Below, piece by piece: positions 5,933-54,837 of a stretch of 64,000 nt of DNA. How positions within the stretch are numbered: the stretch's first letter is position 1; each line of letters starts with the position of its first letter. The position numbers and the translations under genes were made by a program. The stretch lies in contig CM075783.1 in the NCBI GenBank assembly GCA_037974665.1, positions 17,640,762-17,704,761 of the forward strand, read 5' to 3'. The notes beneath the pieces are model-generated. The model saw nothing but the letters and a program-made list of their open reading frames with translations. It was not told where the DNA came from and ran no database searches. The DNA is from Ehretia macrophylla (taxonomy: Eukaryota > Streptophyta > Magnoliopsida > Boraginales > Ehretiaceae).

Positions 5933-6637
5933 CTATATTCTAATACACTTGAGATGGACAAAGTATCTACAAGAACCACAATAGTAAACCCAATTCTTTT
6001 TGTATAGTCTTTTACAACAAACATCACAATTTTTTTTCCCGTCACGTCGGTATTCTTCTGGATAACAATAAGCTAAGAAGAGAGGGTGAGGATGGTCCTT
6101 GTACACCAAAGTGCTTGGAAGTGATCCACAAGTCTTGTGGATCCAGAATGAGCATTTAGTGCAACAATACGACTGATCTTCCTCTTTAATGTCGCAAGCA
6201 TCACACTTAAATAAAGCACTTTTTTGCTGGAGTCTTAGGGGGTGCACATGGCCGGTGTGTTTGTAAGTACCGAAAGGGCTAGTTTGTTGCAATATGGTCC
6301 ATGGAGCACATAAAACACCTGCATCAAACTCACACATGGAACAGTGATAGGTGAAACCTTTCCATGCTTTTAGACAAATATTGCATATACACCCTGATGA
6401 CAAATAAGGCGACTCGTCAGAGAGTTGAAGTGGGTGTTCTGGATGCATTGGATGCTTAATCTCTAATGGTAATTCTGCACAGGATTTATGGAGAAAGACT
6501 TTACATTCGCTGCAACAAAAGGTTAAACCCAAGACTGGTTGTTGGCAACCGTAACAAACATCATTGACGCTATGATCTTCTTGGAATTCCTTGAGGGCAA
6601 GCGGATGCTTCTCATGGCTAAAATGATTGATCTCCAT
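5933..6637 (-). CDS. DC1 (C1_2 Cys/His-rich) domain protein, short form
   Basis: This is an open single-exon frame of 234 codons. It encodes four consecutive DC1 modules at about residues 8-53, 65-110, 128-170 and 182-231. Each shows the HPL ... C-x2-C ... C-x2-C ... H-x2-C spacing expected to bind two zinc ions in a C1-like (phorbol-ester/DAG-type) fold. Plant DC1 proteins are linked to stress, hormone and defence responses; a precise role cannot be read from sequence. The start ATG is shared with sister copies (MEINHFSHEKHPL). Compared with 62991-63721, the protein stops right after the fourth module (LKCIRI) and has no second exon. The sequence past the stop leads into an old Gypsy fragment, so the gene lost its 3' part. 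It may still be expressed as a compact protein, or be a pseudogene with an intact frame. Confidence 0.75.
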   Translation of the reverse strand: MEINHFSHEKHPLALKEFQEDHSVNDVCYGCQQPVLGLTFCCSECKVFLHKSCAELPLEIKHPMHPEHPLQLSDESPYLSSGCICNICLKAWKGFTYHCSMCEFDAGVLCAPWTILQQTSPFGTYKHTGHVHPLRLQQKSALFKCDACDIKEEDQSYCCTKCSFWIHKTCGSLPSTLVYKDHPHPLFLAYCYPEEYRRDGKKNCDVCCKRLYKKNWVYYCGSCRYFVHLKCIRI

Positions 6638-6925
6638 TCTCTCTCTCTCTCTCTATTTTCACTGTTTTCCTTTCTCGCAATTCAAATGCTGAGAATGCAA
6701 GCTTATGAGAGTAATGACCCTAAATATATAATATAATAGATGAAAGCCAAATGCAAAATGTGGGAGAGAATAAGCGAATAATTTTAAGTGTTCACAAAGT
6801 GATGCGAGATCTTACTTTTCTTCAACTATATATCGATAAGAATCCTTCCATTTCGTGATCACGAAATGATACCAAGTAGCAATAATTATTGCCTCTGCAC
6901 TAAGTTAACTCGCCGCAAAAGCTAG
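6638..6925 (-). promoter_or_regulatory. Upstream region of the 5933-6637 DC1 gene
   Basis: A CT/GA microsatellite (about 6636-6656) sits immediately 5' of the ATG, a likely 5' UTR. Upstream lie blocks shared with every other DC1 copy: atagatgaaagccaaatgc, gagaatccttccatttcgtg, gaaatgataccaagtagc and the far block aactcgccgcaaaagctagaa. Their conservation across decayed copies shows common descent. Regulatory function is inference. Confidence 0.5.
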
Positions 6926-10309: not shown

Positions 10310-10550
10310 TGGCAAAGCTTATGGTTGACCAAAATACCTCTGCAATTTGGTGGTTGTAGCAGTGGTGGTGATAGGGGTATTTTGGTCAATCCTATATTTT
10401 TTCGTCTTTTTTTAACGGAATCAGCGACAAGGACTAACAGTGTTCTAACTTTAAAAAACAAAAGATTGAAATATCTCACTTTTGAAAATAAGGGACCAAA
10501 ATGTCAATGAGGTCAAAGATAAGGGACCAAAAGTTGTATTAACACAAAAA
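10310..10550. mobile_element. Half of a Mutator-type MITE, same family as 26920-27300
   Basis: It shares the central hairpin (gaccaaaatacc ... ggggtattttggtc) and the right arm through aatgaggtcaaagataaggg and aaaagttgtattaac with 26920-27300. The left arm is not recognisable. Confidence 0.6.
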
Positions 10551-10946
10551 TAAAAGACCAAAATGTCATTTAATTTTAAGGCTTTGTTTCATAGAATTTG
10601 GGACTTGGCTCCTCTACAATTACGTTCTCTACAATTAGCCTCACAATCCTGACTTCTATTCTCTTCCACCCATGGATACGTTCTTATACGTCTTACGATT
10701 TAGAAGTAGTCTAATAGTGAGTTATTCTCATGAGGATGGGAACATGTGGGCATGGGCAGTGGCGGACCCAAGCACTGGGACTCAGGGTAGTCACTGAGGC
10801 TCAGAAACCGGGATTCAGGGACACTAATTTATACATAAATTAATACACATTACGCACATTGCAACAATTATAAAAATATAAGCATATAAAAGAGAGAAAA
10901 ATAAGTAACTATAGTATTGTAGTAATATAAAAAATACATTTTACAA

Positions 10947-11210: not shown

Positions 11211-11617
11211 TATCTAGAAAAAAAAATCAATTTTAGTTATTAAAAATTATTTAAATTAATACTAAACAACTAGAACTACAAATAAATAAAAATAACTAAA
11301 TTTTCAATTATAAAGATTAAAGAATGCTATGCTGGAAACTAATCTGCCCAAATTTTCAATTTCTTGATCCAAGCATTAGGCATTACGTAAATCTTGATAA
11401 TTTATGAGCTATATTCATCATCTCATTGATCTCAAGGATTTGAAAAGGCATTATATTTAATATAATAAACTTGTAAGTTGTAACTTCTTCCTAATAAACT
11501 AATATATCTAATCATTCAAACTACAAAATACAAAAACTTCATCATCAACAGTCAGCACATCAATCTCGATGGCTTCCTAAACGACGGGCTAAACATAACC
11601 ACAAAACTAGCACTATA

Positions 11618-11850
11618 AACTCCTTAGGTCAGGCCTTAGCAGCACCAACAAATGGAAAAATATAGTATTTAAAGTGTGTTTATCACTAATATCAGTAGCA
11701 CCAACAAGAGATCAAAGAGGAAAAATATTTCAAATTGAACTTTGCTTATTTACCTGCTGCTTGCGAGAATGCGTGAGGGCTTGAGGAGAGAGTGGATTGA
11801 AAACCTTGAGGTGGAGTATGGAAAATAGATCAGATAATTGGTAAAGTGGT

Positions 11851-11881
<31 letters not shown>

Positions 11882-12142
11882 ACTCCTTAGGTCAGGCCTT
11901 AGCAGCACCAACAAATGGAAAAATATAGTATTTAAAGTGAGTTTATCACTAATATCAGCAGCACCAACAAGAGATCAAAGAGGAAAAATATTTCAAATTG
12001 AACTTTGCTTATTTACCTGCTGCTTGCGAGAATGCGTGAGGGCTTGAGGAGAGAGTGGATTGAAAACCTTGAGGTGGAGTATGGAAAATAGATCAGATAA
12101 TTGGTAAAGTGGTTTTACATATATATATATATATATATAACA
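11618..12142. repeat. 263-bp tandem duplication inside hAT-A
   Basis: Copy 1 (11618-11880) and copy 2 (11881 to about 12142) both start aactccttaggtcaggcc and end in a (TA)n run. They differ at only a few bases, so the duplication is recent or has been kept alike by unequal exchange. Confidence 0.92.
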
Positions 12143-20181: not shown

Positions 20182-21441
20182 CTGGAAAATTTTCAACAAA
20201 CAGTTTATAATAATATTACAATATCATTATTGTCGATCTCTACATAAAAATTACAGGATAAATATGGATTCTTCATTCATTACATATAGATGCAATGTTA
20301 CACAGATTTCTGAACCTCGAGGAAAGCCAGTTACTGTATGAACTAAGGTATTCAAAAGAAATCCATCAATTAAATAGGCACGATAGCATTAGCATATAAT
20401 ATCACAATCATCATTGCTTCAATTTTGATGTAATTATCTATTGGGTTATCAAGCCGTTGCCTTCGTAGTATAGTCACATAGCAAAGTCATAATTAGCTGA
20501 AGATAAGGTACATGATCATTTTCTTTAAGCACTTCGTTTTTAATGTTATGGTCTCCTTTGAAATTCGTAGCTTTAATTAGCTGAAGATGAGGCTAGAACC
20601 ATTGTGTTGCATCTAAATGTGAAGCCATGATGATTTAATACGACAGATACCATAAACTTTATACTAGATCCTCCTTTTGTTTTATTAGATGTAACCAGCT
20701 TTGCTTCAGGAGGTTCATAAATTTGCATAACCTTGCCATTCATGTTATGAAACGATTATACCGTATTTATCATCTTATCAGTGACAAAAAATATCCTCTA
20801 ATAGAAGGGCAGATACTTAGAAGATTCTTAGAAGTCAATCTCCCTAGCTATTTTTATGAATTTTGGATTTGTAATTACTGATTTGTTTGTTTTACTTTTG
20901 GCTTCACTTGTAGCAATAATATTTTTCGTAAGTTGATAGCCTTGTTAATTTAATCTCAATACGTACTATGAGTACGTGACACTGTTTCACAATTGTCTGA
21001 ACTTTTATCTCAACTCCTTTATAAGTGTTATCTTATACTACATAAATAAAACATTCTGAGCTCATTTTTATTCACCTTTTTTTTTCACTCCTTACAAAGT
21101 ACCTTTAAATAGTGTGCTAATATTTTACGATCTGCAACATTTATTTGTATCTAGTACCAATAAACTAGGCTTTTGTCTTTTATTGTTGATAAGGTCAACA
21201 CACAAAACAAATGGAGTTTGTAGCAAAAAAAAAAATTTAAAAAGAATTCTATAACCTATAAAGATTTGAGTGAGGTCATTAACCCAACTCCCCTAATGTA
21301 GCACCTAACACCGTTCCTGACAAGTGTCACATACAAAAAGGGTAAAATATTCCCTAGACTGAATAACTGGCTACACATGAAACTTGGGGATCACTTATAC
21401 TACCAAGGCTGATTTACTAGCAATCTATGAAGGTCTTCGTA
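20182..21441. other. No recognisable gene; a short block related to 28345-28425
   Basis: About 20497-20580 (gctgaagataaggtacatgat ...) matches 28345-28425, which lies just after a solo LTR. No N-terminal PSF3 exon and no FLZ exon 1 were found here. Confidence 0.45.
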
Positions 21442-21989
21442 GGGGGTGTTAAGGTAAAAAACATCGAGTCGCAAGTAGCCTTCACGCGCTACCTTGATAT
21501 CTGCAAAACAAAGAGGGTTTGGCGGGTCTTGCCCGCATTAGCACTCCAATGCTTAAATTAGCGTGCTACTTTTGTAGAGGAAAAAGTATATATGTATGTA
21601 TTAATGTGAGTATCAAAAGTACCCCCTCTTCCCTACTGAAAAATCTGTCCTTTTATAGGCACCATGACTGTTGAAGTCATCATGGTTGCTGAGTCAAAAG
21701 AGAGGTCATCATGGTTGCTGAGTCAAAAGGGTAAAGGTGCAGTAGTGGATCATTATTGCAAGCATGGTGGAAAATTATTAAAGGACCAATGAATAATTGT
21801 TTAAAAAGATCAGTGGGAGATTAGCTGGAGATTCCCTAAATTTATGGAACAATGTTTACTTGTGTCTCTTGGCTTGGGGTCTTAAAAGGCGACTTTCGGA
21901 TGACCCTATCCCTCGTTTGACCCCATAAAGCCTCTCCGCACATGATGACCGAGGCCCAGGTATTATTCCCGAGGGGCGGATGTATCCGA

Positions 21990-22290
21990 CAACTCGTTCG
22001 AGGTCTCTAGGACCTCGGAGAAAGCACGACCGAGGTCTTACGGACCTCGGACGAGGTCTGTCCGAGGTCCTTGGGCCTCGAACTCCCTGGTCTGAGGTCC
22101 TTGGGCCTCGGACTCCCTGGTCCAAGGTCCTAGGGACCTCGGAAGACCTCGGACAAGGTCAGTTCGAGGTCCTCCCTGGAGCTCGGACCTTAACATCTAA
22201 GGTCCAGGGGACCTCAGACTCCCTTTGTCCGAGGTCTCAAGGACCTCGGACTCCCTTTGTTCGAGGTCTCAAGGACCTCGGACCTCGGAC
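21990..22290. repeat. Palindromic gaggtcc/ggacctc array in LTR U3
   Basis: About a dozen short units of the type gaggtccttgggcctcgga lie in L1. Matching arrays are in L2 (about 25010-25390) and L3 (about 25985-26165) with different unit counts. Each unit can pair with itself. Confidence 0.85.
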
Positions 22291-22659
22291 AAAATGTCCA
22301 TATCATGATGCCCCCTCAGTTTCCGGAGTTATGCAATAGGTTCAGAAACAGATCGTGATACCTTGGCAACGTCGAATCTAGTCGAGAAATCATTTTAATG
22401 CTGCTTTGTTTTCTGTGTAATTTGCTACCTACTACCATTTAATGCAGCCTTGCCACTTGTCAAGATCTGGTGGAGTGATTTTTGAATTAATGGTGAGGAT
22501 AAGAGACCTTTGATTTTCCCAATCTTTTTCCTTCTTTTAATTTGTCGCTTTTCCCTTTGTACTTGTTTCTTCTGCTGGGTCATGCCTTTGAACCTTTTTT
22601 TGTTAAAGGTCGCTTTCACTTAATCTCACGTTTGTTGGCTTCAGGGATCACGTCCCCTT

Positions 22660-23250
22660 TCTCATGCATCGGGGGTCGTGCCACCGATATTAATGTATTG
22701 GGGTCGTGCCCCAAACTTGATGTATTGGGGGTTGTGCCCCCGATCTTGATGTTTTGCAGGTTGTGCCCCCAATCTTGATGTCTTGGGGGTCGTGCCCCAA
22801 GCTTAAAACTTGGGGGTCGTTCTCCCGGCCTTCGTCTTGAACCTCGGGGATCGTGCCCCCCGGCCTTCGTCTTAAAACTTTAGGGTCATCCCCCGACATT
22901 CTTCTTGAAACTCGGGGTCGTGCCCTCGGTCTTCGTCTTGAAACTAGAGGGTCGTGCCCTCGTCTTCGTCTTGAACCTCGAGGGTCGTGCTCCCGGTCTT
23001 CATCTTGAACCTCGGGGGTCATGCCCCCGGTCTTGTTCTTAAAACTCGGGGGTCGTGCCCCCGGCCTTCGTCTTGAACCTTAGGGGTCGTGCCCCCGGCA
23101 TTCGTCTTAAAACTTAGGGTTCGTGCCCCCGACCTTTGTCTTGAAACTAGGGGTCGTGACCCCGGTCTTCGTCTTGAAACTCGGGGGTCGTGCCCCCGGT
23201 CTTCTTCTTGAACCTCGGGGGTCGTGCCCCCAACCTTCATGTCTTGGGAA
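22660..23250. repeat. Hairpin minisatellite, about 18 units of 30-37 bp
   Basis: Each unit has a palindromic core like gggggtcgtgccccc followed by cggtcttcgtcttgaaac. Roughly 18 cores can be counted, more regular toward the right. It lies in the 3' part of the Gypsy interior, between the terminal pol-like sequence and L1. Arg/Pro/Gly-rich open frames on the minus strand are produced by the repeat and are not genes. Confidence 0.9.
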
Positions 23251-23469
23251 AATCTCATTTTTATAGGAAGTGTGTCTCTCATCTTTTATTGATTTTGGAA
23301 GTTGGCTATCCTTTTCGAGATTTGGCTATCTTCCATTAAAGGCTTGCCTTAGTAGGTCTCATGATATTTGTGTAAAAAAATTACAATTATTGACAGGACT
23401 TAGGACGCGAATATCAAATTCATTGTAGAGACATAATTTGTCTCGACATAAACAACAACTAAACATTCA

Positions 23470-24998
23470 AATAGTGTTTTCTTAGTTGCTCTATGTGCCA
23501 AACCTTTCTCAGTTCTTTACCGCTGAGGTTTTCGAATCTGTAGGCTCCTAGCTTGACCTCTCCAGCTATCTTGTAAGGGCCTCCCCAATTTGGTCCAAGC
23601 TTTCCCTAATTTGGGTCAGGTCTGAAGATTACCTTTTTTTTTTAGGCCCCAATCTTCTTTTTTGAGCTTTCTGGAATCTCAATTAGTTCTTTCTTTCCTT
23701 TCTGCAACCTCAGACTAGTCGCATAGTATTCTTGGGATCTCCTCCGGTCCTCTCTTCTTTATGTCTTCGTCTTTCTCTGCCATTGCCATTTCTTTTACTT
23801 TAATATATTTCTCAGCTCTGATCATCAAATCTGTCATGTTCTGCGGGGTCTTTTTGGCTAAGGAAGCATGGAACAACTCGTTTGTTACCCCCTTTGTGAA
23901 TGCCTGTATTGCAAATCTCTGATCAAATTGCATACACTGAAGGGTTGCCTCATTAAAGCGAGTTGCATACTAGCGGAGAGTTTCTCCTTCTCTCTGCTTT
24001 AGACCGAGCAAGAAGGTAGTGTGACGGGTAGGCTTAATACCAAAGGAAAATCTCCCAATGAAAACTCTACTAACTGTGCATAAGAACCGATTAACCCATC
24101 CTTTAGTTCATCATACCATACCTTGCCCGCTTCCACCAAAGTTCTTGCAAAAGCTTTACATATCCAGGCCTTTGGCAACTCTGTGAACTCCATTTTGTGC
24201 CTGAATACCGCCAGGTGATCTTTAGGGTCTCCATGTCCATCATAGGTAGGCAAATGAGGCAATTTATACTGCACGGGCTTCGAAACTTTGTTGATGGCGT
24301 GATTAAAGGGATTTGGGCCTCTAAAAGCCCTTGTAACTGAGATAGTACAAGTAGTACCTCTTATTCGGGCACTTTGAAACGGGCCTCCCACCGCCGTATC
24401 CAAGCTTTGAGATGACCCTGTGGAGTTCACCATCTCCTTGTGTTGCCCCCTAGTATGAACTCGTTGTCTGGACTCTCTTGGGTTGGTTGTGTTTCTGGCT
24501 GATTGGGTGTTTTGGCATGAGTAGTTTCGCTGGGGCATTTGATGTTGTTGGTTATCTTGGTGGTAAGGTGCTGGTTGAGGTGCTCGGTTATGAAGGTTTC
24601 ATTCAATTACTCCAAAGTTCGTAGGATGTATCCTAAATCTGTCGGTGGGTTAATCTGCAGAATATGTGTTGGGGCAGTGGGATATTGCCACCCTGGGTAC
24701 CAAACTAGTCCCTGCGGACAATTCTGAGAGTACGTTGGTAGATAGTTTGGATACAGATTTCTGATGGGTTAGTGTATGGTAGGCGGTTTCCCGCTGGTAT
24801 TTCCACTCCTGGCGGTGGTGGGTCAGTCTGTCCAAGATTAGAGGTCTCCCATGGACAGAAATGCATATTTGGCAGCTCCATAGCTTCTTCTTCATGTACA
24901 ATTGCAACATTCTGACTCCTAGTAGTAACCATGGTATAATCTTGTGTAAACTCAGTAGGGAACTTAGAATCGGCTCCACGGTGGGCGCCAACCTTCAT
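23470..24998 (-). pseudogene. Gypsy gag-like and terminal pol-like remains
   Basis: From the primer-binding site the minus strand gives a gag region with DPKDHLAVFRHKMEFTELP and WYDELKDGLIGSYAQL, a Retrotrans_gag pattern of Tat-type elements, and further gag at 23715-23933. It passes into about 23650-23470, where GPNWGGPYKIAGEVK and KVWHIEQLRKHY are the usual last residues of Gypsy polyproteins. The enzymes in between are absent, so the element depended on others. Broken. Confidence 0.7.
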
Positions 24999-26683
24999 GA
25001 TATGGACGTTTTGTCCGAGGTCCCTTGGACCTCTGATGTTGAGGTCCGAGCTCCAGGAGTTCGAGGTCCAAGGACTTTTGTCCGAGGTCCTTAGGAGCTC
25101 AGACAGGTCTGTCCAAGGTCCAAGGACCTCAAACCAAGGAGTCTGAGGTCCAAGGACCTCGGACAGACCTCATCCGAGGTCCTTAAGACCTCGGACAAAG
25201 GAGTCCGAGGTCCATAGGACCTTGGACCAGAGAGTCCGAGGCTCAAGGGACCTTGGACCAGGGAGTCCGAGGCTTAAGGGACCTTGGACCAGGGAGTCCG
25301 AGGCCCAAGGACCTCGGATAGACGTCGTCCGAGGTCCGTAAGACCTCGAACATGCTTTCTCCGAGGTCTTAGAGACCTCGGACGAGTTGTCGGATACATC
25401 CGACCCCTCGGAAATAACACCTGGGCCTCGGTCATCTTGCGTGGAGAGACTTTATGGGGTCAGACGAGGCATAGGGCCATCCGAAAGTCGCATTTTAAGA
25501 CCCCAAGCCAAGAGACACAAGTAAACATTATTTCATAAATTTAGGGAATCTCCAACTAATCTCCCACTGATCCTTTTAAGCAATTATTCATTGGTCCTTT
25601 AATAATTTTCCACCATGCTTGCAATAATGATCCACTACTGCATCTTTACCCTTTTGACTAAGCAACCATGATAACCTCTCTTTTGACTCAGCAACCATGA
25701 TGACTTCAACAATCATGGTGCCTATAAAAGGCCAGAGTTTTCAGCAGGGAAGAGGGGGTACTTTTGATACTCACATTAGTACATACATATATACTTTTTC
25801 CTCTACAAAAGCACCACGCTAATTTAAGCATTGGAGTGCTAATGCGGGCAAGACCCGCCAAGCCCTCTTTGTTTTGCAGATATCAAGGCAGCGCGTGAAG
25901 GCTACTTACGACTCGACGTTTTTTACCTTAACAGGTTGGCGCCCACCGTGGGGTCGATTCTTATCATGATATGGACATTTTGTCTGAGGTCCTTGAGACC
26001 TCGGACAAAGGGAGTCTGAGGTCCCTTGGACCTCAGATGTTAAGGTCCGAGCTCCAGGGTGTTCAAGCTCAAGGACCTCGAACTGACCTCATCCGAGGTC
26101 CCTAGGACCTCGGACAGACTTCGGACGTGTTTTCTCCGAGGTCCTAGAGACCTTGGACGAGTTGTCGAATATATTCAACCCCTCGGGAATAATACCTGGG
26201 CCTCGGTCATCGTGCGTGGAGAGGCTTTATGGGGTCAGACGAGGCATAGGGCCATCCGAAAGTCGCCTTTTAAGCCCCAAGCCAAGAGACACAAGTAAAT
26301 ATTGTTCCATAAATTTAGGGAATCTCCAGTTAATCTCCCACTGATCCTTTTAAACAATTATTCATTGGTCCTTTAATAATTTTCCACCATGCTTGCAATA
26401 ATGATCCATTATGGCACCTTTACCCTTTTGACTCAACAACCATGATGACTTCAACAGTCATAGTGCCTATAAAAGGCCAGAGTTTTCAGCAGGGAAAAGA
26501 GGATACTTCTGATACTCACATTAATACATACATATATACTTTTTCCTCTACAAAAATACTATGCTAATTTAAGCATCGGAGTGCTAAAGCGGGCAAGACC
26601 CGCCAAGCCCTCTTTGTTTTGCAGATATCAAGGTAGCGCGTGAAGGCTACTTGCGACTCGACGTTTTTTACCTTAATAGGGGG

Positions 26684-26919
26684 CTAGCTTAGCATTGGAT
26701 CATTTGCAGATTGAGAGAAATTCTAGGCAATTTAGTCGCTTATCATGGATGATACCTTGCCTAACAACCACTTCAAATCACTGATTGAGGAATCCAGAAA
26801 CATTACGTGAAGCAGACCAAATTCTCAACTGGGGCATATATATCAAGAAGTCAACAATTATGTTGATTGGGTAGCGAACTATGATTGGGTTACTAGTTGA
26901 AAAATTGTACAAATTAAAC
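26684..26919. other. No feature recognised
   Basis: Single-copy looking flank to the right of the Gypsy complex. Confidence 0.4.
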
Positions 26920-27300
26920 TAAGGGTGAATATCACTTTGGGTCCTTTACCTTTGACCTCATTGACATTTTGGTCCCTTATCTTAAAAAATGAGACATTTC
27001 AGTCACTTATCTTTTAAAGTTGGGATATCGTTAGTTCTTGTTGCTGATTCCGTTAAAAAAAGACGGAAAAACACGTGATTAACCAAAATACCCTTACCAC
27101 CACCACCGCTACCACCACCAAATTGTAGGGGTATTTTGGTCAACCATAAGTTTTTTATGTATTTTTTAACAAAATCAGCGACAAGGGCTAACGATGTCTC
27201 AACTTTAAAAGATAAGGGACTAAAATATCTCACTTTTGAAGAGAAGGGACTAAAGTGTCAATGAGGTCAAAGATAAGGGACCAAAAGTGGTATTAACCCT
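26920..27300. mobile_element. Mutator-type MITE
   Basis: Inverted ends (left agggtgaatatcactttggg, right complement agggttaataccacttttgg) extend inward through ccttta.ctttgacctcattgac. The centre is a second hairpin with a ccaccaccaccgctacc run. Candidate 9-bp target repeats are aaattaaac (26911-26919) and aaattaaat (27301-27309), 8 of 9 matching. A related half copy is at 10310-10550. Confidence 0.8.
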
Positions 27301-27339
27301 AAATTAAATGATGAGTTGACCTTAAAGCAATATATTAAT

Positions 27340-31050: not shown

Positions 31051-34000
31051 CTAGTTGGACTTCTTAGGACTGGAATCGACAATCTTCCGAACACATCGCT
31101 GGCAGAGGTTAAAATAGCAAGTTTCACATTCAAAGCCGATGCGTCCTTCCAAATTACGATCACATTTGTTACAAGAGAATTTATATTTAACTTCCCTCAC
31201 AAAGGTGAGAGGATGTGGGTGATACTCAATTTGAAGTTTACCACCAAACTTCACTTTACGATCCCCGCCAAGTCTAGGAATGCATTTAAGATGAAAGGAA
31301 TTAATATCGCATTCACGACAATGATATAGCCAGTACTTGGGATGGATTTCTTTTTCACAAATGTCACAAATAAATTCATCAGGATGATAATAAAAGGGTG
31401 GAAAGCTCAGTATGAGAGGGTGTTTATCCCATCTATGTCTGACAGTCTGAGGGCATGTTGCGCAATCCATAGCCAAATTGTACTCATCGGAAGTCTTCTT
31501 GCTACTAAAGGAGAACAACGAATTGTAACGCTTGCAAGTCTTGCAACTAAAGAAGACATCCTAATGCCTGGAATTACAGGCGTTGCAAAACTTTAGGGAA
31601 ATGCCACCTCGAAAAGGAAGTGGTCGTGACCTTCAAGCTTAATTGCAGGAGGAAAAGTAGCACAATTGATGTCAAGCAATAAGTGACACTCCTTGCACTT
31701 ATAGAAGAATCTGTTACAAAACTAGTAACAGTAATCACAGTGAAAAGAACCAGAAAACTCCTGGCGGCAATGATTGAGGGAGAGTTGATGCTTGGGATTG
31801 TAGGAACATGAGAGGTTATTTGGAAGCTGAGCACAATGTAAATGGATGAAGTAGCTGCATTGAGCACAAGTATAACATGTTGGGTATCAGCGCAGCGGAA
31901 TGTTTGGGGCGAAGCGGTATCACACAGTTAAAATAAGACTGAGAAAATGATAATTGAGACACAATATTTTTACGTGGAAAACCCTCAAACAAATTAAGGG
32001 AAAAACCACGGGCAAGTATAGGAGGTTTCACTATGATGTAAGAATAAATTACAATATCATTCTCTTTAATATAAGGAGAAACTAATTCTTACTCACAAAT
32101 TAAGATAATTAATATGGAAGAAAACTCTCAAAAAAACTCTTAATATTTTCTCTCTGATTTCTGGGATTATAGGATACCATTGAACTGAAGAATGACTACT
32201 ATTTATAGCAGAAATTCTACAATGGTTCTGTGTATTTGCTTCGTTGTGCTTCACATTTAACAACGTGCAATGTCTTCAACTTTGTTTCCGCATGCAAGGT
32301 GACAATGCATCTGATCAAAGTCTGCAGCTCACTTTTTTCATTTCAATTCCATGTGCTGCCATTGCTTTTGCCTTGTTTAATATTTTACTATCTTTTCTTT
32401 TTGCTTTTCCCAACACACCTCATGTGAAGCATGCAGGACCATACCTTTCTTCTATGTGCAAATGAGCTTTACACATCACATTCTCCCACTTAAAACTCAT
32501 TTGTTGATCTTTCCGAATCTCTCCGTACCTGCCATTTCTTGTTGCTTACGTTTTCGCTACACCACAAGAGGATCTACTCCAAACGAACTTGTCAACGTTG
32601 ATTGGCTTTGTCATGACATCTGCTAGGTTGTCATTAGTGTGGATCTTCTGCATATCCACACTTCCTTCCTCTACTACTTCTCGAACGAAGTGATATTGAA
32701 CCCCTATGTGCTTTGTTCTAGAATGAAAAGCTGGATTCCTTGCAATGTGCAAGGCACTCTGGCTATCACAATACAAGGGAATTTTCTCTTGTTTGTGCCC
32801 GAGCTCCTCCATTAAACTTTTAATCCAGATTGCTTCTTTACAAGCATGTGTAGCCGCCATGTATTCAGCCTCTGTTGTAGATAAAGCTACAACAGTCTGT
32901 AACTTAGATACCCAGCTTACCGCGCCTCCTGCAAGTGTAAACACATAGCCTGTAGTGGATTTTCGTTTGTTAAAATCACTTGCAAAATCTGAATCAACAA
33001 AACCATTACAATATATTTTGATCCTTCATAACATAATGCAACATCCGAGGTTCCTTTAATGTATCTTAGGATCCTCTTAACTGCGTTCCAGTGCTCTCTA
33101 CCAGGATTTGCCATGAACCGACTGACTGCGCTGACTGCTTGAGCAATATCTGGTCTCGTACATATCATAGCAAACATGAGACTTCCCACTGCTGATGCAT
33201 ACGGTACTCGAGACATTTCCATCCTCTCTGCTTCATCACTAGGGCACATACTTGAGGATAATTTATAATTAACAGGAAATGGGGTTGAGATTTCCTTACA
33301 GTCTTGCATGTTGAAGCGCCGCAAGATTTTCTTGAAGTAATTATTCTGGGAAATCCGTATTTTCCTGCCTTTTCTGTCTCGGTGAATTTGCATCCCTAAA
33401 ATCTTGTTTGCTGGTCCTAAATCCTTCATGTCGAACTCCCTAGCCAACTGTGCCTTCAAATCTTGGACTCGATCTTTGCTGGGGCCTGTTACCAGCATGT
33501 CATCCACATACAACAACAGAATGATGAAATCATTATCTCCAAACCTTTTGTAATACGTACAATGGTCTGAATTGAGTCTGTTGTACCCGAGGCTAATTAT
33601 GAAGGAATCAAATCTCTTGTACCAGCATCTCGGCGCCTGCTTTAGACCGTACAGAGATTTGGTCAACATGCAAACCAAGTTTCCTTTTTCTTTCTCAACA
33701 AAACCTTCTGGTTGGATCATGTAAATCTTTTCTTCAAGTTCACCATGAAGAAAAGCAGTCTTTACATCTAATTGTTCTAGATATAAATCAAATACAACAC
33801 ACATGGCCAAGACTACTCTGATAGTTGTAAGTCTAACCACAGGAGAAAATATTTCGTTGAAGTCAATACCTTCTTTTTGAGCAAATCCTTTCACCACCAG
33901 TCTTGCACGATATCTCTCCACTTGGTCATTTCCATCTCGCTTGATCTTGAATACCCATTTGTTACCGATGGCTTTCCGTCTAGGTGGTAGAGGAACAAGC

Positions 34001-37000
34001 TCCTACGTTTTGTTTCTATGTAGAGCTTCAATTTCTTCCTGCATTGCTATCTTCTACAAAGCCACATTGGGACTATTCATAGCCTCGTGAAAAGTAGATG
34101 GCTCTCTATCCTCCGTTAGAAGACAATATGCAGCATTGCTTGCCATGACATAGTCTGAGTGCCAAGGCGGTGTTGATGTTTGACGCGATGAACGTCGAAC
34201 ATCTGTAACCTTAGCCTCATCTACTTCTTGTTCCTTGTGCTCCGATGCTGTTTCAGAAGAAATATCTTCATTTCCTGGGTTATCTTCGATATGTACTATA
34301 GTAGTCTCCTTTGCAGTGTTGTTATCATCTTCACTTTGCAGTTTGTCTTCTGCAAATATCACATCTCTGCTGATGATAATCTTGTGGGCAGTAGGATCCC
34401 ACAAACGATACCCCTTAACACCATCAGCATATCCCAAGAATATGCATTTCCTGGACTTTGGATCCAGTTTTGTTCTTTCTTGAGAACCATACATCACATA
34501 TGTCGGACATCCAAATACGTGCAAGGTAGAATAATCTGCGGGTTTTTCGGTCCACATTTCCATTGGTGTTTTCAACTCAATTGCAGATGGTGACCGGTTT
34601 ATCACGTAACAGGCGGTTCTGGCTGCTTCTGCCCAAAATGATTTGGCTAGTCCTGCAGTTTCCAACATAGCTCTCATTCTTTCAAGAAGAGTTCTGTTCA
34701 TCCGCTCTGCCACTCCATTTTGCTGAGGTGTATGGGCAACAGTGAACTGCCTCTGAATGCCTTCTTGCTTGCAAAATGTCAGAAAGCTCCCGTCAGTGTA
34801 TTCTCCTCCGTTGTCTGTCCTCAGACACTTGATCCTTTTTCCGGATTCAAGTTCCACTAGCGCTTTGAATGTTTTGAATACTGGAAACACATCTGACTTG
34901 TTCTTGATTGGATACACCCACAGTCTCCTAGAGTAATCATCAATAAATGATATAAAGTATTTGGCTCCTCCTAGGGACAAAACCGGCGATTCCCAAACGT
35001 CTGAATGAATCAAGTCTAGAATGTATTTGCTTCTGGCAGTAGATCTCCCAAATTTCAATCTATGCTGCTTACTGATAACACAGTGCTCACAGAAAGGTAA
35101 GTTCACCGTCTTGAGCCCGGGTAGGCGATTACGTTTAGCGAGAATCTTCAAGCCACGTTCTGTCATATGGCCTAATCTGCGATACCACATAATAGTTGAT
35201 TATTCTTGTTTGGCTGATGCAACTGACGTGTCTGCCTCCTGCAACGTATCTCCCAAAAGCATGTATAGATTTACCGCTATCTTTTCTGCCTTGATCACCA
35301 CAAGCGCTCATTTGACGACCTTCATGATCCCATCCTGGATCTAGGTCTTGCAGCCAAGGTCATCCAATTGTCCAATAGACAATAGGTTCTTTTTCAAGCC
35401 CTTCACATGTCGTACTCCTTGAATGATGCGAATGGTACCATCATACATTTTTATCTTGACGGCACCGATGCCAGCAATCTCCAAGGGATGATCATTACCC
35501 ATGTACACAGATCCTCCATACGTAGGTTCATATGTGTGAAACAATTATCAACGAAAGGTCATATACCATGTTGCTCCCGAATCCATTATCCAAGCATTAG
35601 TGAGCTCCTTTCTACCTTCTGATACAGTTGCTGTTTCGCTGTATAAAATATCTCCATCATCAGGTACAGTTGCAACACATCCCTGAGAATTTATCACCTC
35701 GGGATTCTTTTTGTTGCTCTAACAATCTTTCTTGATGTGCCCTTTCTTGCCACAGTTGTAACATTTGATATTCTTTCTACTCCTGGACTTTGATCTACCA
35801 TGTTTGTTGCTCCCACTCGAGCCATGTTCTGTTGATCTGCCTCTCACCATTGGTAGTGCCTCTGCTTGTTGTGAACTTTCAGCTCTGTCTTCTTTACTCT
35901 TGCTCCTAGTTTCCTCTTCTAGAATAGCAGCTGCAACATCATCAAAAGTAACAGATTCTGAAAGAACATTATTAGTGTAACTAATGATGAGTTGATCATA
36001 CGAATCAGGTAGACTTTGAAGTAGAATCTCCGCACGTTCAAGCTCTTTTATTATCTGTCCCAACGCAGTTAGTTGAGAAAATAATGTATTTAAGGTATTG
36101 ATGTGATCAGTTACCGATGTGGATTCACTCATTCGAAGAGTATACAATTTTCTCTTCAAGAAAATCTTATTGTGAAGTGACTTGACCTCGTACAGTTTGG
36201 TTAGTGCATCCCAAATTTCATTTGCTGACTTCTTTTCATCCACGCTTGACAGTACCAAATCTGCCAACACCAGATGCAAATTAGCCATAGCATTGTTATC
36301 CATTTCTGTCCACTTATTGTCATTTGTCACCTCCACTGGTCTGTCTCCAATTACTGCTAAGCAATTCTCCTTTTTTCAAGATTGCCTTCATCTTTAATTT
36401 TTAAAGGGAAAATTTGCTCCCGTTGAACTTCTCGATTTCAAATTTTGCCGCCATAGTGTTAATGACGATCTGCTTCTCAACTTGAACCGGCTCCTACTAT
36501 TTCACTGTGAAAAGTACCATACACGTGAATAGTAATTGTGAATAGTAACCCCGCAACCAATTGCTTTGATACCACTGTTGGGTATCGACGCAGCGGAATG
36601 TTTGGGGCGAAGTGGTATCACACAACTAAAATAAGACTGAGAAAATGATAATTGAGACACAATATTTTTACGTGGAAAACCCTCAAACAGATTAAGGAAA
36701 AAACCACGGGCAAGTATAGGAGGTTTCACTATGATGTAAGAATAAATTACAATATCCTTCTCTCTAATATAAGGAGAAATTAATTCTTACTCACAAGTTA
36801 AGAAAATTAATATGGAAGAAAACTCTCAAGAAAAACTCTCAATATTTTCTCTCTGATTTCTGAAATTTTTGGATGCCAATTGAACTGAAGAATGACTACT
36901 ATTTATAGTAGAAATTCTACAATGGTTCTTTGTATTTGCTTCGTTGTGCTTCACATTTAACAACGTGCAATGTCTTTAACTTTGTTTCCGCGTGCAAGGT

Positions 37001-37423
37001 GACAATGCATCTTATCAAAGTCTCTAGCTCACTTTTTTCATTTCAATTCCATGTGCTGCCATTGCTTTTGCCTTGTTTAATTTTTTACTATCTTTTCTTT
37101 TTGCTTTTCCCAACACACCTCATGTGAAGCATGCAGGACCATACCTTTCTTCTATGTGCAAATGAGCTTTACACATCATATAACATGAACCTGAAATGGG
37201 TTCAATGCAAGCACTGCACACTGTTTCCTGATCATCGCCATCCATTTAACTGTAGTCATCTTGGATATTAGTGAGAATCAAAGGGTGGTCATGACTGAAG
37301 TGATTAATTTCTTTTGAATGTTCAATCAGTGAGAAGCCTTTTTCCTCCAAGAAATGTCGAATCAGTTGTGCAGATAGGACCTCTGCGGGCAAGCTGATAC
37401 AATTTCGTGGGATCTCAGCAGCA
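31051..37423 (-). pseudogene. DC1-b exon 2, split by a Copia element
   Basis: After an acceptor (atcttcctag, exon start 37423) the minus strand encodes IPRNCISLPAEVLSAQLIRHF, then EINHFSHDHPLILTNIQDDY and CSACIEPISGSC. Here the 5.3-kb Copia (31878-37180) intervenes. It continues TCAQCSYFIHLHC, NPKHQLSLNHCRQEFSGSFHC, and from 31518 CATCPQTVRHRWDKHPLIL to a C-terminal CETCYFNLCQRC and stop at 31051. It encodes about four more DC1 modules. It is dead for reasons besides the insertion: the acidic stretch DDYS is followed by TAA where the sister copy has GAA, and there is a TAG after HCDYCY and a further break near the DYNL region. The TSD of the Copia is taaca on both sides. Confidence 0.85.
31878..37180 (-). 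mobile_element. Copia element 1 (Tork/Tnt1-like), in a DC1 gene
   Basis: LTRs 31878-32480 and 36577-37180 (about 603 bp, TGTTGGGTATC...ACATCACA) are flanked by the 5-bp repeat taaca (31873-31877, 37181-37185). A primer-binding site like initiator tRNA-Met lies inside the right LTR, and a polypurine tract (aagtgggagaa) inside the left. On the minus strand come gag with a CCHC knuckle (CYNCGKKGHIKKDC, about 36336-35719), protease region (about 35544), integrase (35190-34600), reverse transcriptase with YVDDMLVTG (33921-33000) and RNase H (to 32546). Nearly full length but broken in several places. The LTRs differ by roughly 5%. Confidence 0.93.
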
Positions 37424-37581
37424 CTAGGAAGATAAACAATGTCATGTCATGTCATTATCTGATAGAACATTAGCAAAAGGAGGAAAACAACAAATAAAAG
37501 AAAGAAGGAAAAAATAATTCGCACTCGTGCAGCACCTAACTAATATCAAACTAAAAAAATGAGAAAGCAAAAAAGAAGAGA

Positions 37582-38667
37582 TCAGAATACTGACAAATAC
37601 TTAGCTATGGCTGCTTCAGCCTCTTCGGAATAGGATGTCTTGCACTTGATATGGACAAAATATCTGCAAGGACCACAATAATATACCCAATAATTTGGGT
37701 ATAGTTTATCCCTACAAATATCACAGTTTAGTCCATAACGTCGGTATTGTTCTGGAAAACAATAAGCTACGACGAGAGGATGAGGGTGGCACTTGTGCGA
37801 CAAGTTGCTTGGCAGTGATCCACAACTCTTGTGGATCTAAAACGAGCATACAGTGCAACCATATGACTCATCTTTCTCTTCTGTGCCACAAGCATCACAT
37901 CTAAACCAGGCACTTCTTAATTGGAGTTTCAGGGGGTGCTTATGGCTTGGGTGTTTTAGTGTGCCATCTAATTGAGCACAAAAAACATCCAAATGAAACT
38001 CACACTTGTAACAGCCATAGGCGAAACCGCTCCAGGATCTACCATAGTTATTGCATGTTGACCACCCATAAGGCAACTTGGCGAAGAGTTTAAGTGGATG
38101 ATGACAAGCTGTATGCGTTGGATGCATAATCTCGGATGGTAGTTGTGCGCAGGATTTGCGGAGGAAGACTTCACAAATGCTGCAAAAATATGTTGACGAC
38201 CCTGAGACTATTAATTGTTTACAAACGCTGCAACACACAACTTTCTTGCTGCTCATATCTTCTTGTTGCAATTCCTTGAGGATAAGTGGATGCTTCCCAT
38301 CGATAGTGTGTTTAAACATCTCTAATTGAGCACAAAAAACATCCACATCAAAATGACACTCGGAACAACGATAGGTGAAACCACGACAGTATCTTCTACA
38401 TATATCACAACAGGACCTTCCTGGCATATAAGGCTTGACATGGAGTATAAGTGGATGTTCAGAATGCATTGGATGCGTAAACTCTAACGGTAGCTCTGCG
38501 CAAGATTTGTGAAGGAAGACTTCACATACGCTGCAACAATATATTGAACCTGACACTGGTTCTTTACAACCGTAACAAACAATTTCTGGGTTTTCATCTT
38601 TTTTCAATGCCTTGAGGATAAGTGGATGTTCCTCATGGCTAAAATGATTGATGATCTCCATCTCCAT
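37582..38667 (-). pseudogene. DC1-b exon 1, with expanded modules
   Basis: Begins MEMEIINHFSHEEHPLILKAL. It encodes DC1 modules 1-2, then a second copy of a module 1-2 pair (HPLILKELQQED ... CSICEVFLRKSC ... HPLKLFAKLP), then modules matching 3 and 4 of the sister gene, so it has six rather than four. One in-frame stop lies at 37837-37839, where the conserved W of CSFWIHK is TAG. The frame continues to about 37601, where a weak donor (taa|gtattt) ends the exon. The extra pair could be an ancestral state or a local duplication. Exon 2 follows after a roughly 180-bp intron. Confidence 0.85.
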
Positions 38668-38879
38668 CTCTATCTCTCTCTTTCTTTTTTACTCTTTTCC
38701 TCTCTCAGAATTCAAATGCTATGAATACAAAGCCTTTGCTGCGAGTGATGACATTAATAAATAGGTACAAGTCAACTACAATTCTACCATGGTAGGTCAG
38801 CCCATGGCTTGTCGTCTTGTATTCATAGCATTCACTTGTGTTCAATCTTGATACCAATTGGTTTTAGAGTAAAACCTCA

Positions 38880-43592: not shown

Positions 43593-46500
43593 CATTACCA
43601 CATTTTTTATTTCTTGCAACGTTCTAGTTAAACAAGTAAAAAAATCGTTGCCATATGTAATTTGTTGCAATGGTTTTTTTAAGTTGCATCAAACTATTGG
43701 AATATTTGTGATATGCAACGCTTTTTATTAAGTGTTATTTATTTCATTCATTTTTTCCAACGGATTGTTAAATTATAGCTTAGTTGCAACTTAAATAAAG
43801 GCTTTTGCAACAGTTTTGTTACTATTACTTCTAAACATTTCAGAATCTAGGATATGCAACACTTCATTAAGTGTTGCTTATTTTATTTATTTATTTTTGC
43901 AACGGTAGGTAAAATTATAGACTTAAATGCAACGCACAAAAACTGTTGCTTATTAGATGTTTATTTAGTGAGACGTCTTGGGATATTTTATTCGCGAAGA
44001 AATTTGTGGTTAATTCATTGAAAATGAGAAACTATCAAAAACAATTATTTGAAAAGATAGAAAAAAAAACCAAAAAGTTGAGTAATTTAGTTCTCTTTTT
44101 TACCTCCTCATTTCTTTCATTTTTTGCCAAAATTGAGACTTTTTTGCTTTTTACTTACATATTACTGTCGACTAGTAAAAAATTATTGCAAGTTTAGAAA
44201 ATAGCAAAGCAAGTATAAAAAACTATTATTTATGTTTTTTAAAATTATTTACAAAAGTATATTGAATAAAATAAACTTCTCACTAATAACTTTACTTTTA
44301 GATGAGATGATTAGTAACATAATTATAGAGTTCAATATCAAAAGGTCTTGCGTTCGAGTCTCAATGCTACCTATTTAGAAAAATATATCCAAGTGTATAG
44401 AAATGTAGGTGTTTGTATTATATCTCAAAAGAGTGTACAGAGCATCTATTTGTACTACAACATCAGTGAAGAAGCGATAAAGATAACACATGAGATAGAC
44501 CAAGATACATAGAATTTAAAATAATTCAAACAACATAATTTATCTCTTATCACGCCCCTGCAAGTGAAGCTAGTTCTTGAACAGTAAGCTTGTGTCGGAG
44601 AGAGGCAAATCGTGGTTTAGACAATGCCTTCGTCATGATGTCCGCTATCTAATATGTGGTGGAAATGAAGCGAACTAGAAGTGCACCAGAAGCAAACCTT
44701 TCCCGTACAAAATGCACATCTATTTCAATGTGCTTCATTCGAGCGTGGAAAATAGGATTAGCAGTGAGATAGGTAGCGCCAATATTATCACACCATAAGA
44801 CCGGATGAGATGACATTTTACAGTGGAGCTCAACAAGCAAAGACTGCAGCCAGCATAACTCGGCAGTTGCAAATGCAATGGCCCTATATTGGGCCTCAGT
44901 ACTGGAGTGAGAAGCCGTCGTTTGTTTTTTCGCAGACCATGAAATAAGATTATGACCCATGTAGTCAAAGTAACCATGAGTACTACGCCTAGGACACCCC
45001 GCCCAGTCGGAGTCCGAGTACGCATGCAATTGAAGATCAGAAGCATGATGAAGAAGTAAACCATGAGACATAGTACCCTTAATGTAACGCAGTATTCTCT
45101 TCACAGCAGCCCAATGAACATCAGTCGAAGATTGCAAAAATTGAGAGACTTTGTTAACCGAAAAAACAATATCCGGTCTTGTTATAGTGAGGTATTGTAA
45201 CGCACCAACGATACTCCGATATAATTTGGGGTCAGAGAAAAGATCACCATCCTGTTTCAAAAGAGCTTGTGTGGGTGCGATAGGAGATGCCACTGGCTTG
45301 GCAGACTCAAGACCTGCACGAACCAACACCTCATGAGCATATTTCATTTGACATAAGTGTAAGCCATCATTCACTAGCCGAGCTTGAATCCCAAGGAAAT
45401 AGGAGACTGCCCCCGGATCCTTAATGGAGAATTGTTGGTCAAGATGAGTGAGAACAGCCTGTATTTCTGCATCTAAGTTGCTTGTAACGAGAATGTCGTC
45501 GACATATACAAGAACAAAAATGGTGATGTTGGCACAATGCTTGATAAAGAGAGAGTTGTCTGAAATTGAAGAGTAAAAGCCAAGATGTTGAAGAGATTCA
45601 CGCAAACGAGAGAACTATGCCCTCAGAGCCTGCTTCAAACCATATATTGCCTTTTGAAGTTTGCACACATGCGAAGGGTAAGAGGAATGAACAAAGCCAG
45701 GGGGCTGCATCATGTAAACATCCTCCTGCAGTATACCATGAAGAAACGCGTTGTTAACATCTAGTTGTCGTACCGCCCACCGTCGAGACAACGCAATAGA
45801 AAGGACTACCCGTATTGTTGCCGGCTTAATCACAGGACTGAACGTCTCTGTGGAATCCACCCCTTCCTCTTGATTATAACCCTTTGCAACAAGCCGCGCT
45901 TTATAGCGCTCTATCTAACCATCAGCCTTCTTCTTCACACGGAACAACCATTTACAACCCACCAAGTTTGCATCAGGTGGTTTAGGAACCAACAACCACG
46001 TCCCATTTTGAATAAGAGCATTAAATTCAACATCCATAGCAGTCCGCCAATGGGCAAACTTAGAGGCCTGATTATAAGTGGATGGTTCGAAGTCAATAGA
46101 AGAGAAGGAATGAGCTGTAGTATGTGTTGTGAATGTGATGTAATCGGGAAAAGATTTTGCAACACGCGTGTGATCACGACTACGAGTGACCATAGGGTGC
46201 TGCCAGAAGACGGAATTGATGGCAGAGGGGAGTAGATTAACAGATGACACATCATGAGGAGAAGCTTGCACAGAGCTTGAATGAGGCAACGTAAGAGAAG
46301 GAGACGTAGGAGAAGAAGTAGGGGCAGTAGGGAGGCCAGCTGCGTGAGACTCTATCACTGGAGGAAAGGGAACCGATTGTGCACCTAACGGCAGAGGTCG
46401 TGGTGTAAGACCTGATTGTGGTGACGAAGTAAAAGATGGAAGAGATGCGAGACCAACAGGACGTAGAGGAGATAATAAATTAGGAGTGCGACCCGACGAC

Positions 46501-49500
46501 AAAATCAGAGAAGTAGAAAGAGGCGTTGAAGTAGGTGTAGCGGATGCACGATTGAGAGAGAAGGACGCTGGATATGTTGGATTAATTGTGACGTTACGGG
46601 GCAGAATCGTGGAGGATGTAGGAGAGATTTGAGTAGTGGGGAGACATACAAGACCAGGAGAGTTAACACGAGATGAAGACATGGTGTGATAGGGAAAAGT
46701 TTGCTCATCCAAGATAATATGACGCGACGTATGCACTTGGCCTGTTAAGGGATTAAAGTAACGATAGCCCAAATGACATGGACTGTATCCAATAAAAACA
46801 CACTTTTGTGACTTGGGGCTTAATTTGTCAGTGTGAAGTGGCCCAAGGTGGGGATAACAACTACAACCAAGAACACATAACATGGAATAATCAGGAGGAG
46901 TGTGAAAAAAAAGCTCATAGGGCGACCGATTAGCCAAGAGTGGAGTGGGTAAGTGCTAATCAGATAAACAGCAGTAGTAAAAACTTCGAGCCAAAATTTT
47001 TTGGGAAGAGAGGCATGAAACAACAATGTTTTCCCCATGTCTGTAATGTGTCTTATTTTTCTTTCCGCAAGCCCATTTTGTTATGGAGTATACGGACATG
47101 AAATACGATATTGAATACCAGCAGAATCAAGGATTGATTTTAAACGTCTCTGAGTAAGTTATTTCTCACCATCACATTGAAAGGATTTGATAGTGGTATT
47201 AAAAAAATTTTCAGTTAGGCGTTTAAAGTGAATGAAGCAATCGACACAATCACTTTTTTGTTTGAGAAGATATATCCATGTGAACCTGCTGTGATCATCA
47301 ATGAAAAGTATGAAAAATCTAAAGCCAGAAAAGAATGCACAGGGAAAGGACCCCATATATCACAGTGAATCAGTTCTAAAGTAAAAGATGCAGTTTTATT
47401 AGATGCTTGAAATGGCAGCTTGTGGCTCTTGCCAAGCATACAAGAATTACAGACTTTATTCAAAGGCATAGCCCCAGAAATATTCAAATGATCCCGAGTA
47501 CGAAGAGTGGTTACAACAGACGGAGCCGGATGACCCAACCTATTATGCCACACATTAAAAGGCTCAGCTCTAGACGCAACCAAGGCAACTAGACTGAATG
47601 GCATGGATGAAGTCGGCAAGGAGAGATTGTAAAGATCAAATTCAGCGCGGCCCTCGAGGAGTGGCTTCCCTGTTTGAAGGTCCTTAACAAGACAAAAAGA
47701 CGGAAAGAATTCCAGTGAGACATTATTGTCTTTCGTAAAACGAGAAACAGAGTAAATTTCGAGTGATAAGAGGGACACGCAGGATATTATGAAGGGAAAA
47801 ATGACGAGTGGGTGTAGAAAAGGAAGATGAACCTGTATGCGAGATACAAAGAGACTTACCATCACCCACAAAGACCTGATCAGTACCAGTGTAAGGATGC
47901 ATTTACTGAAGAAGAGACGGGTCAGAGGTCATGTGAGAGGATGCACCTGAATCCGAAATCCAGGATTGAACCAAACTAGAACTAGAAGGAGTAGAATACT
48001 GAGGAGGTTGTTGAGAGTGGAAGCCTGCAAAATGATTTTGATTGCCATTGTTACGTGACTAGGAGTAACGGAAGCGACACTGGGCAGTAGTATGACCCTG
48101 TTTCTGGCAAATTTGACATTTGGTACGAGAGAAGTTGGAGTTGGAACGAGAAGAGTTGTTGTTCTTTGTGGCAGGAGAAGCAGTGTTGGATGAGATGGTA
48201 GAAGGCTTGGAGACAGCCACATGACCCTCAGGTGTGGAACTGACTTGAGCAACTAGAGCTGTAGTGGAGCCGTGATCAGTAACAGAGGATGAGGAATCCT
48301 CAAGAAGTATCCGTTGCTCATACATCAATAGTTTTGCACGAAGTTGAGAGAAGGTAGGTGGGGTGGCCAAGTTCTCAACCGAAGTCACAAATGGGCGATA
48401 ATCTTTAGGCAGCCCATCTAGAGTTGCAAGCACCATGTCAGAGTCAGTGAGCGAATCACCAACAGTAGCTAGAGCACTTGAGATTGTATAAATGTGGTGC
48501 AAGTACTCAGCTGCCGAGAGAGTTCCCTTTTCGAGTGACCGAAGCTGAGCCCGAAGGAGGGATTTGCGTGCAAGAGATTGTTGCATAAAAGAGTCATGAA
48601 GTGAAACCTAGAGCTCATGAGCAGAGGTGAAGCCAACAGTCTGATGAACCAATGAGTCTGAAAGAGTGGCAGTAATACACGCTGTAACAAAGCGATCAAA
48701 TCGAATCCAGTCCTCAGATGACACAACAGTAGTGGAATCAGTGGAGGTAGTTGTGCTAGCATCAGACTCAGCAGGTAGGGAAAGGGAACCATCAACGTAG
48801 CCCATTAAATTGTTAAAAGTAAGAAAGTTAACCATCTGTGATTGCCAGGTTAAATAATTGGTGGTGTCCAACAGAACCGTGACATATAGCTTGACATTAA
48901 GGGAGGGAAGAGAGAAAAGATAAGAAGGAGATGACAAGGGAAGAGCAGTGGAAGAAGATGGAGTCGCAGCGGTGGAGGTTGGAGTAGCAGCAGTAGAGGT
49001 TGGAGTGGTCATGATGATGGAAACGTGGGTGTTTGGAAGAAAGAACAGATAAGACCGTGGCAGCAGGACCAAAAGACTTTCGTCAAAATTAGACTCCTGA
49101 TACCATGTAGAAATATAGGTGTTTGTATTATATCTCAAAAGAGTGTACAGTGCATCTATTTGTACTACAACATCAGTGAAGAAGCGATAAAGATAACACA
49201 TGAGATAGACCAAGATACATGGAATTTAAAATAATTCAAACAACATAATTTATCTCTTATCAAAGTGCAACTCATTAAAAAAAGGAAAAAGAATCTCATG
49301 CATATATATTATTTTTAGAAAGATAAACTTGCAACTGTAAAATTACCATTGTTTATAGTTTTAAAAACCATTGCAATAACTAGTAAAAATTGTCACAAAA
49401 AGTATTAAAAATCGTTGTTGTTGCACAAGAAAACCGTCGCAAATAGTAGAACATTTATCATGTAGTCTTTAAAAAAAATTATTACTAAAAGAATCTATTG

Positions 49501-51352: not shown

Positions 51353-51754
51353 TATCTTACTTTTGAGTCTGATTCGCTAATAACTATTTAGCTGTTAAAG
51401 GTAGAAGTACCTTCGAAGAGTCATTTAAGGTTCTTATCGAAGACTGTAAAAAGATTTTAGCGGACCATGAAGGATACCAACTCCAGCATGCATTTCGCGA
51501 ATTAATGAGATCTGGATATAGAGATTTGGGGCTAGATGAGACACCCTTTGCTTAGTTTGAGTTTTGAGTTAGTGTCCGAATTGGAAGAATATTTATATTA
51601 TTTGAATTGAATGTAATAATTAATGATTTGTTAATTTGTGATTTTAGTGGCTCCAAATTATGTAATTAATGATTGTGCGCCTTGCAAGTTTGAGAGGTTG
51701 ACCCTTCAAAAACGTGACATGTCACGCTTTTAGTTTAGTTTTGTGGCGTGAAAA

Positions 51755-54639: not shown

Positions 54640-54837
54640 TCTTCCTAATTCGACTTCTTAGGACTGACCATCTCCGACCACATGGCTGGCAGAGGTTAAA
54701 ATAGCAAGTTCCACATTCAAAGCCGATGCGTCCTTTCAAATTATGATCACATCTGTTACAACGGAATTTATATTTAACTTCCCTCACAAAGGTGAGAGGA
54801 TGTGGGTGATACTCAATTTGAAGTTTACCCCCAAACT

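Follow-up and report, generated by a model that had tools for sequence, protein, structure and literature searches.

How can a long terminal repeat (LTR) retrotransposon come to lie in a chromosome with the same end of its LTR facing the host on both sides? The question is raised by an insertion in Ehretia macrophylla (Boraginales, Ehretiaceae), which occupies positions 21442 to 26683 of the 64,000-nucleotide stretch analyzed here and referred to as the window (contig CM075783.1 of assembly GCA_037974665.1, positions 17,640,762 to 17,704,761 of the forward strand). The insertion contains three LTR copies (L1, L2 and L3), and a U5 (3′) LTR end, rather than a U3 (5′) end, is outermost on either side. 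The complex probably originated in the single integration of one rearranged DNA molecule bearing two U5 ends, the rearrangement having arisen among the intermediates of reverse transcription. The observations behind this reading are the layout itself, a shared target repeat, flanks that join into one domain, near-equal divergence of the three LTRs and native bases retained at the internal junctions.

From left to right, the complex is made up of ggggg, L1 (minus strand), an interior (minus strand), L2 (plus strand), 33 bp, L3 (plus strand) and a second ggggg (Table 1). The left border reads TAGGGGG followed by TGTTAAGG, and the right border reads CCTTAATA followed by GGGGGCTAG, so that a U5 end is outermost in each case. 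An earlier note on this stretch had described the minus, plus, plus order, the outward U5 ends and the enclosing ggggg, and our coordinates and borders agree with that description, as they do with the 33-bp distance between L2 and L3, with the second sequence resembling a primer-binding site (PBS) in that spacer, and with the head-on meeting of the minus-strand interior and L2 at a PBS. The LTR terminus given there, ACCTTAACA, holds as the U5 end at both borders, but L3 departs from it by one base, a C to T change, and reads AATA instead of AACA. A standard insertion exposes one U3 and one U5 end, whereas both outer ends are U5 here; its remaining hallmarks are present, with PBS-like sites and a polypurine tract (putative primer sites) beside the LTRs and a 5-bp duplication, ggggg, on both sides. 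The two PBS-like regions share 93% identity over 29 nt. The U3 terminus was placed by the TG...CA rule, and no U3 end contacts host DNA at this locus.

Table 1. Coordinates of the three-LTR complex, of its flanks and of other LTR pairs in the window
Feature	Position	Strand	Basis or remarks
Left copy of the 5-bp target repeat, ggggg	21442..21446	+	sequence
L1, LTR with U5 end toward left flank	21447..22305 (859 bp)	-	sequence comparison
Native bases CATCA, from polypurine tract to LTR start	22306..22310	-	sequence
Polypurine tract GAGGGGG	22311..22317	-	sequence; role inferred from position
Interior A, polypurine tract to PBS, 2.7 kb	22306..24997	-	gag-like pieces, integrase C-terminal-like piece
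Tandem array within interior A, units of ~34 bp	22669..23248	-	self-comparison, families D1, D2, D5
PBS-like site of interior A, adjoining L2	24973..24990	-	sequence
Junction 1, TCA retained ahead of L2 start	24995..24997	+	3 of 3 bases as in native L1 context
L2, LTR with U3 end at junction 1	24998..25933 (936 bp)	+	sequence comparison
33-bp spacer: GGT, 18-nt PBS-like site, leader CGATTCT, one T, ATCA (junction 2)	25934..25966	+	
Second PBS-like site, in L2-L3 spacer	25937..25954		sequence
L3, LTR with U5 end toward right flank	25967..26678 (712 bp)	+	sequence comparison
Right copy of the 5-bp target repeat, ggggg	26679..26683	+	sequence
Decayed host RVT_3 (RNase H-like) domain, upstream part, ending at insertion	21363..21446	+	translation; ~10 bits gain when joined
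Decayed host RVT_3 domain, downstream part	26686..26897	+	one frame change, one stop
LTR pair, 95% identical	31878-37181		target repeat TAACA; terminal CA to TA change in 3′ LTR
LTR pair, 98% identical	44398-49262		target repeat AAGTG
LTR pair, 95% identical	54837-61587		target repeat AAACT

The first step is to establish that the two copies of ggggg bound one insertion. In the window outside the complex, randomly drawn pairs of 5-mers agree with a probability of 0.0017, and 20 of the 58,759 positions there carry GGGGG. Flanks that fail to join had been named earlier as an outcome that would speak against a real duplication. The upstream flank carries a short reading, KADLLAIYEGLRRG, that breaks off at the insertion, and the translation of the flanks joined over one ggggg, with X placed at stops and frame changes, matches the Pfam family RVT_3 with 28.8 bits over profile positions 41-121 (cut-off 21.6), as compared to 18.6 bits for the downstream part alone. 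When the upstream piece was replaced by an exact permutation of itself, the score ranged from 17.5 to 19.6 bits in eight of eight cases; with a less strict splice, the joined reading had scored 28.9 bits, and three hand-scrambled controls 17.7, 18.2 and 19.5 bits. The true upstream piece adds some 9 to 11 bits, a modest gain that falls in the right place. Searched against Pfam by itself, that piece returned no RVT_3 match, only DUF4998 at an E value of 0.21. The gain on joining supports the view that the insertion splits a single decayed RVT_3 domain, the two flanks having therefore been neighbors beforehand, and because they join in this way, a genuine target site duplication is the best reading of the two ggggg copies.

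These results also bear on the contig itself. The locus contains long inverted and direct repeats, which could have been misjoined in the contig from which the layout is taken. Flanks that join and have a common ggggg are at odds with an artefact of this kind, as is the placement of both internal joins at landmarks of reverse transcription, with polypurine-side bases retained, and we regard a misassembly as very unlikely.

The divergence of the LTRs indicates whether they arrived together. Over 547 gap-free columns, which lie outside the tandem array of the U3 region, L1, L2 and L3 carry 13, 15 and 22 singletons respectively (chi-square p 0.26), and a single column shows three different bases; 35 of the 50 singletons are C-to-T or G-to-A. 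Kimura two-parameter distances are 0.056 for L1-L2, 0.070 for L1-L3 and 0.074 for L2-L3. This roughly equal, star-like divergence supports a common arrival of the three copies. Were L2, the 33-bp spacer and L3 a separate element that inserted later, L2 and L3 should form the closest pair, but they did so in just 74 of 2000 bootstraps, and a younger nested element was accordingly rejected. A recombinant complex of two neighboring elements was likewise discarded, on account of the common target repeat and the approximately equal LTR divergence. In an alignment of the whole LTR, L2 shows 47 singletons versus 18 and 26 in the other two copies, an excess located mostly in the tandem array of U3, a part of the alignment that cannot be relied on. 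The array contains extra units in L2, and it also holds units common to L1 and L2 that L3 lacks; at 21673-21729, an indel separates the copies, a 29-bp unit being present twice in L1 and L2 and once in L3. The outer LTRs, L1 and L3, have in common a U3 5′ arrangement that is missing from L2, yet L1 and L2 are slightly the closest pair outside the array.

A single 5-bp repeat, joining flanks and star-like divergence support the earlier proposal that DNA rearranged in advance was integrated, as opposed to damage after arrival. A standard insertion altered later, either by inversion between LTRs or by nested insertion followed by deletion, appears highly improbable. L1 and L2 do constitute long inverted repeats between which the interior could flip, and to that extent the LTR-mediated inversion put forward earlier as an alternative may have taken place. 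It fails on topology as a source of the outer U5 ends, since a crossover within an LTR leaves the terminus facing the flank in place; once flipped, the complex would read head to tail except for a reversed first LTR, and it would contain the same aberrant joins as the observed form. Nested insertion with deletion would call for several cuts exactly at LTR borders, and the L2-L3 pair is not the youngest.

Alignment of the three LTRs and mapping of the breakpoints, as the earlier note had recommended, place the internal joins at the PBS-side and polypurine-side ends of the element. The native sequence leading from polypurine tract to LTR, as seen at L1, is GAGGGGG-CATCA-TG. Ahead of L2 stands CCAACCT-TCA, which keeps three native polypurine-side bases before TG, and ahead of L3 stands CGATTCT-T-ATCA, which keeps four; the probability that seven retained bases match by chance across the two junctions is 6e-5. 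On the opposite side of the joins, interior A meets L2 head-on at its PBS, where the cut falls a single base within the LTR/PBS boundary, and the other cut lies 7 nt beyond the 18-nt PBS. Both aberrant joins combine a polypurine-primed U3 end with a PBS-side end.

Such junctions count against self-integration, the example originally offered for the rearrangement, in which integrase inserts an LTR end of the same or a second complementary DNA (cDNA) molecule into a cDNA and the product then integrates. Inverted LTRs are a known outcome of this process (PMC4751563). Its known products are circles. A join made by integrase should set TG directly against continuing target sequence and generate a 5-bp repeat. 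Instead, native polypurine-side bases precede both L2 and L3 in place of continuing target sequence, no 5-bp repeat was seen at either internal junction, and we assign self-integration only a slight chance.

The composition of the joins is better accommodated by intermediates of reverse transcription. Minus-strand cDNA halts at the LTR/PBS boundary ahead of second strand transfer. In the reading we favor, a minus-strand cDNA, halted with its 3′ end at the PBS and awaiting that transfer, would have failed to pair through its PBS with plus-strand strong-stop DNA and would have become joined end to end with the U3 end of a second minus-strand cDNA, either through a jump of reverse transcriptase from template end to template end or through end joining in which the two 3′ ends primed on each other. 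The second partner, likewise cut at its polypurine-side U3 end, would have lost the interior between leader and polypurine tract beforehand, a deletion that left one LTR, the PBS and 7 nt of leader followed by another LTR. Because each minus strand starts at its transfer RNA (tRNA) primer, both ends of the resulting product would be U5 ends, which integrase could then have processed and inserted together to create the 5-bp repeat. The intermediates, the strands joined and the joining enzyme are what we infer here. Taken as a whole, the locus may be the fossil of a failed second strand transfer, in which two co-packaged minus-strand cDNAs were joined by their 3′ ends, one at the PBS and the other at U3, primed each other and were inserted U5-U5 in a living cell; we advance this fuller scenario tentatively, as plausible rather than probable.

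The joining step could also have been carried out by the host, if its end-joining machinery assembled the U5-U5 molecule from double-stranded cDNA fragments and integrase inserted it afterwards. This route predicts the same sequence as the joining of minus strands, and it would suit the two joins, which lack clear microhomology and contain one extra base at most. It demands, however, a fragment in which both strands extend to the PBS and the 5′ LTR is missing, which the standard scheme of reverse transcription is not known to yield as a main product, and we deem it unlikely. According to a review (PMC12426944), fly LTR elements depend on end-joining factors for second-strand synthesis and circularization.

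Several points weigh against an origin among minus-strand intermediates. Two aberrant joins are required, not one, and the single T at junction 2 exactly fits neither side. In its U3 array, L2 departs further from L1 and L3 than it does over the remainder of the LTR, which would fit a second RNA template or instability of the array, one of which the proposal requires. Both the LTR 5′ terminus and the layout rest on this one assembled locus. Two joined readings of the flanks were tried: the first, limited to frames 0 and 2, matched no Pfam family, and the positive one includes the downstream frame change; the RVT_3 reading depends on frame changes. Finally, neither a reverse transcriptase nor an integrase core was recognized in the interior pieces searched.

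Because these cores were not recognized, the enzymes for the insertion were presumably supplied in trans, and a non-autonomous LTR retrotransposon is the best explanation for the element. One piece of interior A matches the integrase C-terminal family SH3_Tf2-1 with 20.6 bits, below the Pfam cut-off of 30, and the label Gypsy is provisional, drawn from this weak match and from general features of such elements. The Ty3/gypsy superfamily is characterized by a pol order in which reverse transcriptase and RNase H precede integrase, and no pol core was recognized here. Other pieces are putatively gag-like; none of the interior pieces, searched separately (two, then five), matched a Pfam gag family. 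A match of one interior piece to the fruit-fly Transformer family (E 0.022) was below the cut-off and was set aside as compositional. Further copies of the family were found neither among the first 60 blastn matches listed for the window, which run in order of position and stop short of its end, nor when the window was compared with itself over its full length for matches of at least 120 bp. Against viral_contigs, one exact U5-PBS pattern returned 0 matches and the longest gag-like piece no confirmed relative. The window holds no tRNA gene.

The three other LTR pairs examined in the window all show the normal U3/U5 layout together with a 5-bp repeat (Table 1). They were chosen by eye from the self-comparison, and their repeats were found by script at T...A borders; of 2000 pairs of sites drawn at random, 46 gave a match in the same search. 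The first of these elements splits a stretch that is present elsewhere, 31243-31879 and 37172-37516 matching 61584-62182 and 62168-62516, and 61584-62516 may constitute a paralogous empty site for it. Just downstream of the three-LTR complex, at 26913-27309, lies a foldback element with 185-bp arms that are 81% complementary, with relatives at 10314-10557. The window further contains a 263-bp tandem duplication, 99% identical, at 11614-12139, and diverged repeated segments at 5946-6885, 37610-38730, 51737-52037 and 63009-63965, perhaps an old element or a duplicated gene family into which other elements have broken.

If the proposed origin is true, the integrase of an LTR retrotransposon is able to insert DNA with U5 at both ends into a genome, just as the integrase of human immunodeficiency virus type 1 (HIV-1) does in vitro, and the locus records exactly where intermediates of reverse transcription ended. 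Surveying U5-U5 insertions would in that case yield a rate of failed second strand transfers. It would also test whether the end joining of cDNA 3′ ends that has been reported for LTR elements of fly and mouse takes place in this host.

In a literature search covering few subscription journals, we found no published genomic insertion with two U5 ends, and the known systems each resemble the locus in part. Concerted U5-U5 integration in vitro likewise pairs two U5 ends and mostly produces a 5-bp repeat, but that study (PMC8742673) concerns purified HIV-1 integrase and short substrates, whereas the locus is a genomic insertion. Self-integration products of Ty1 and murine leukemia virus (PMC4751563) resemble it as rearranged cDNA with inverted LTRs; they join processed LTR ends to an internal target and form circles, while the internal joins of the locus keep extra end bases and its product is chromosomal. 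When EVD inserts anew in Arabidopsis mutants, some of the truncated copies are internally deleted elements with two LTRs, two of them with clear target repeats; the portion of that article considered here (PMC10462705) describes deletions and chimeras, but neither reversed LTRs nor two equal outer ends. In tobacco, Tnt1 undergoes template switching from one packaged RNA to another, to which it probably owes an additional U3 repeat (PMC2923131). Three-LTR insertions with a single 5-bp repeat have been ascribed to the same kind of switching (Sabot and Schulman 2007, PMC1950507); two such complexes come from Triticeae, while rice and maize contribute one each. Like the locus, they contain three LTRs inside one 5-bp target repeat, and they are explained by an error of reverse transcription involving two packaged RNAs, followed by normal insertion by integrase. 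By the text of that work they possess two complete cores and ordinary U3 and U5 outer ends, whereas the locus has one core, its second being reduced to 28 bp with a PBS-like site, one reversed LTR and two outer U5 ends; with one core and a reversed LTR, it falls outside their definition. These complexes are the closest precedent, and the Ehretia locus is best regarded as a variant of them that may have arisen through a similar working.

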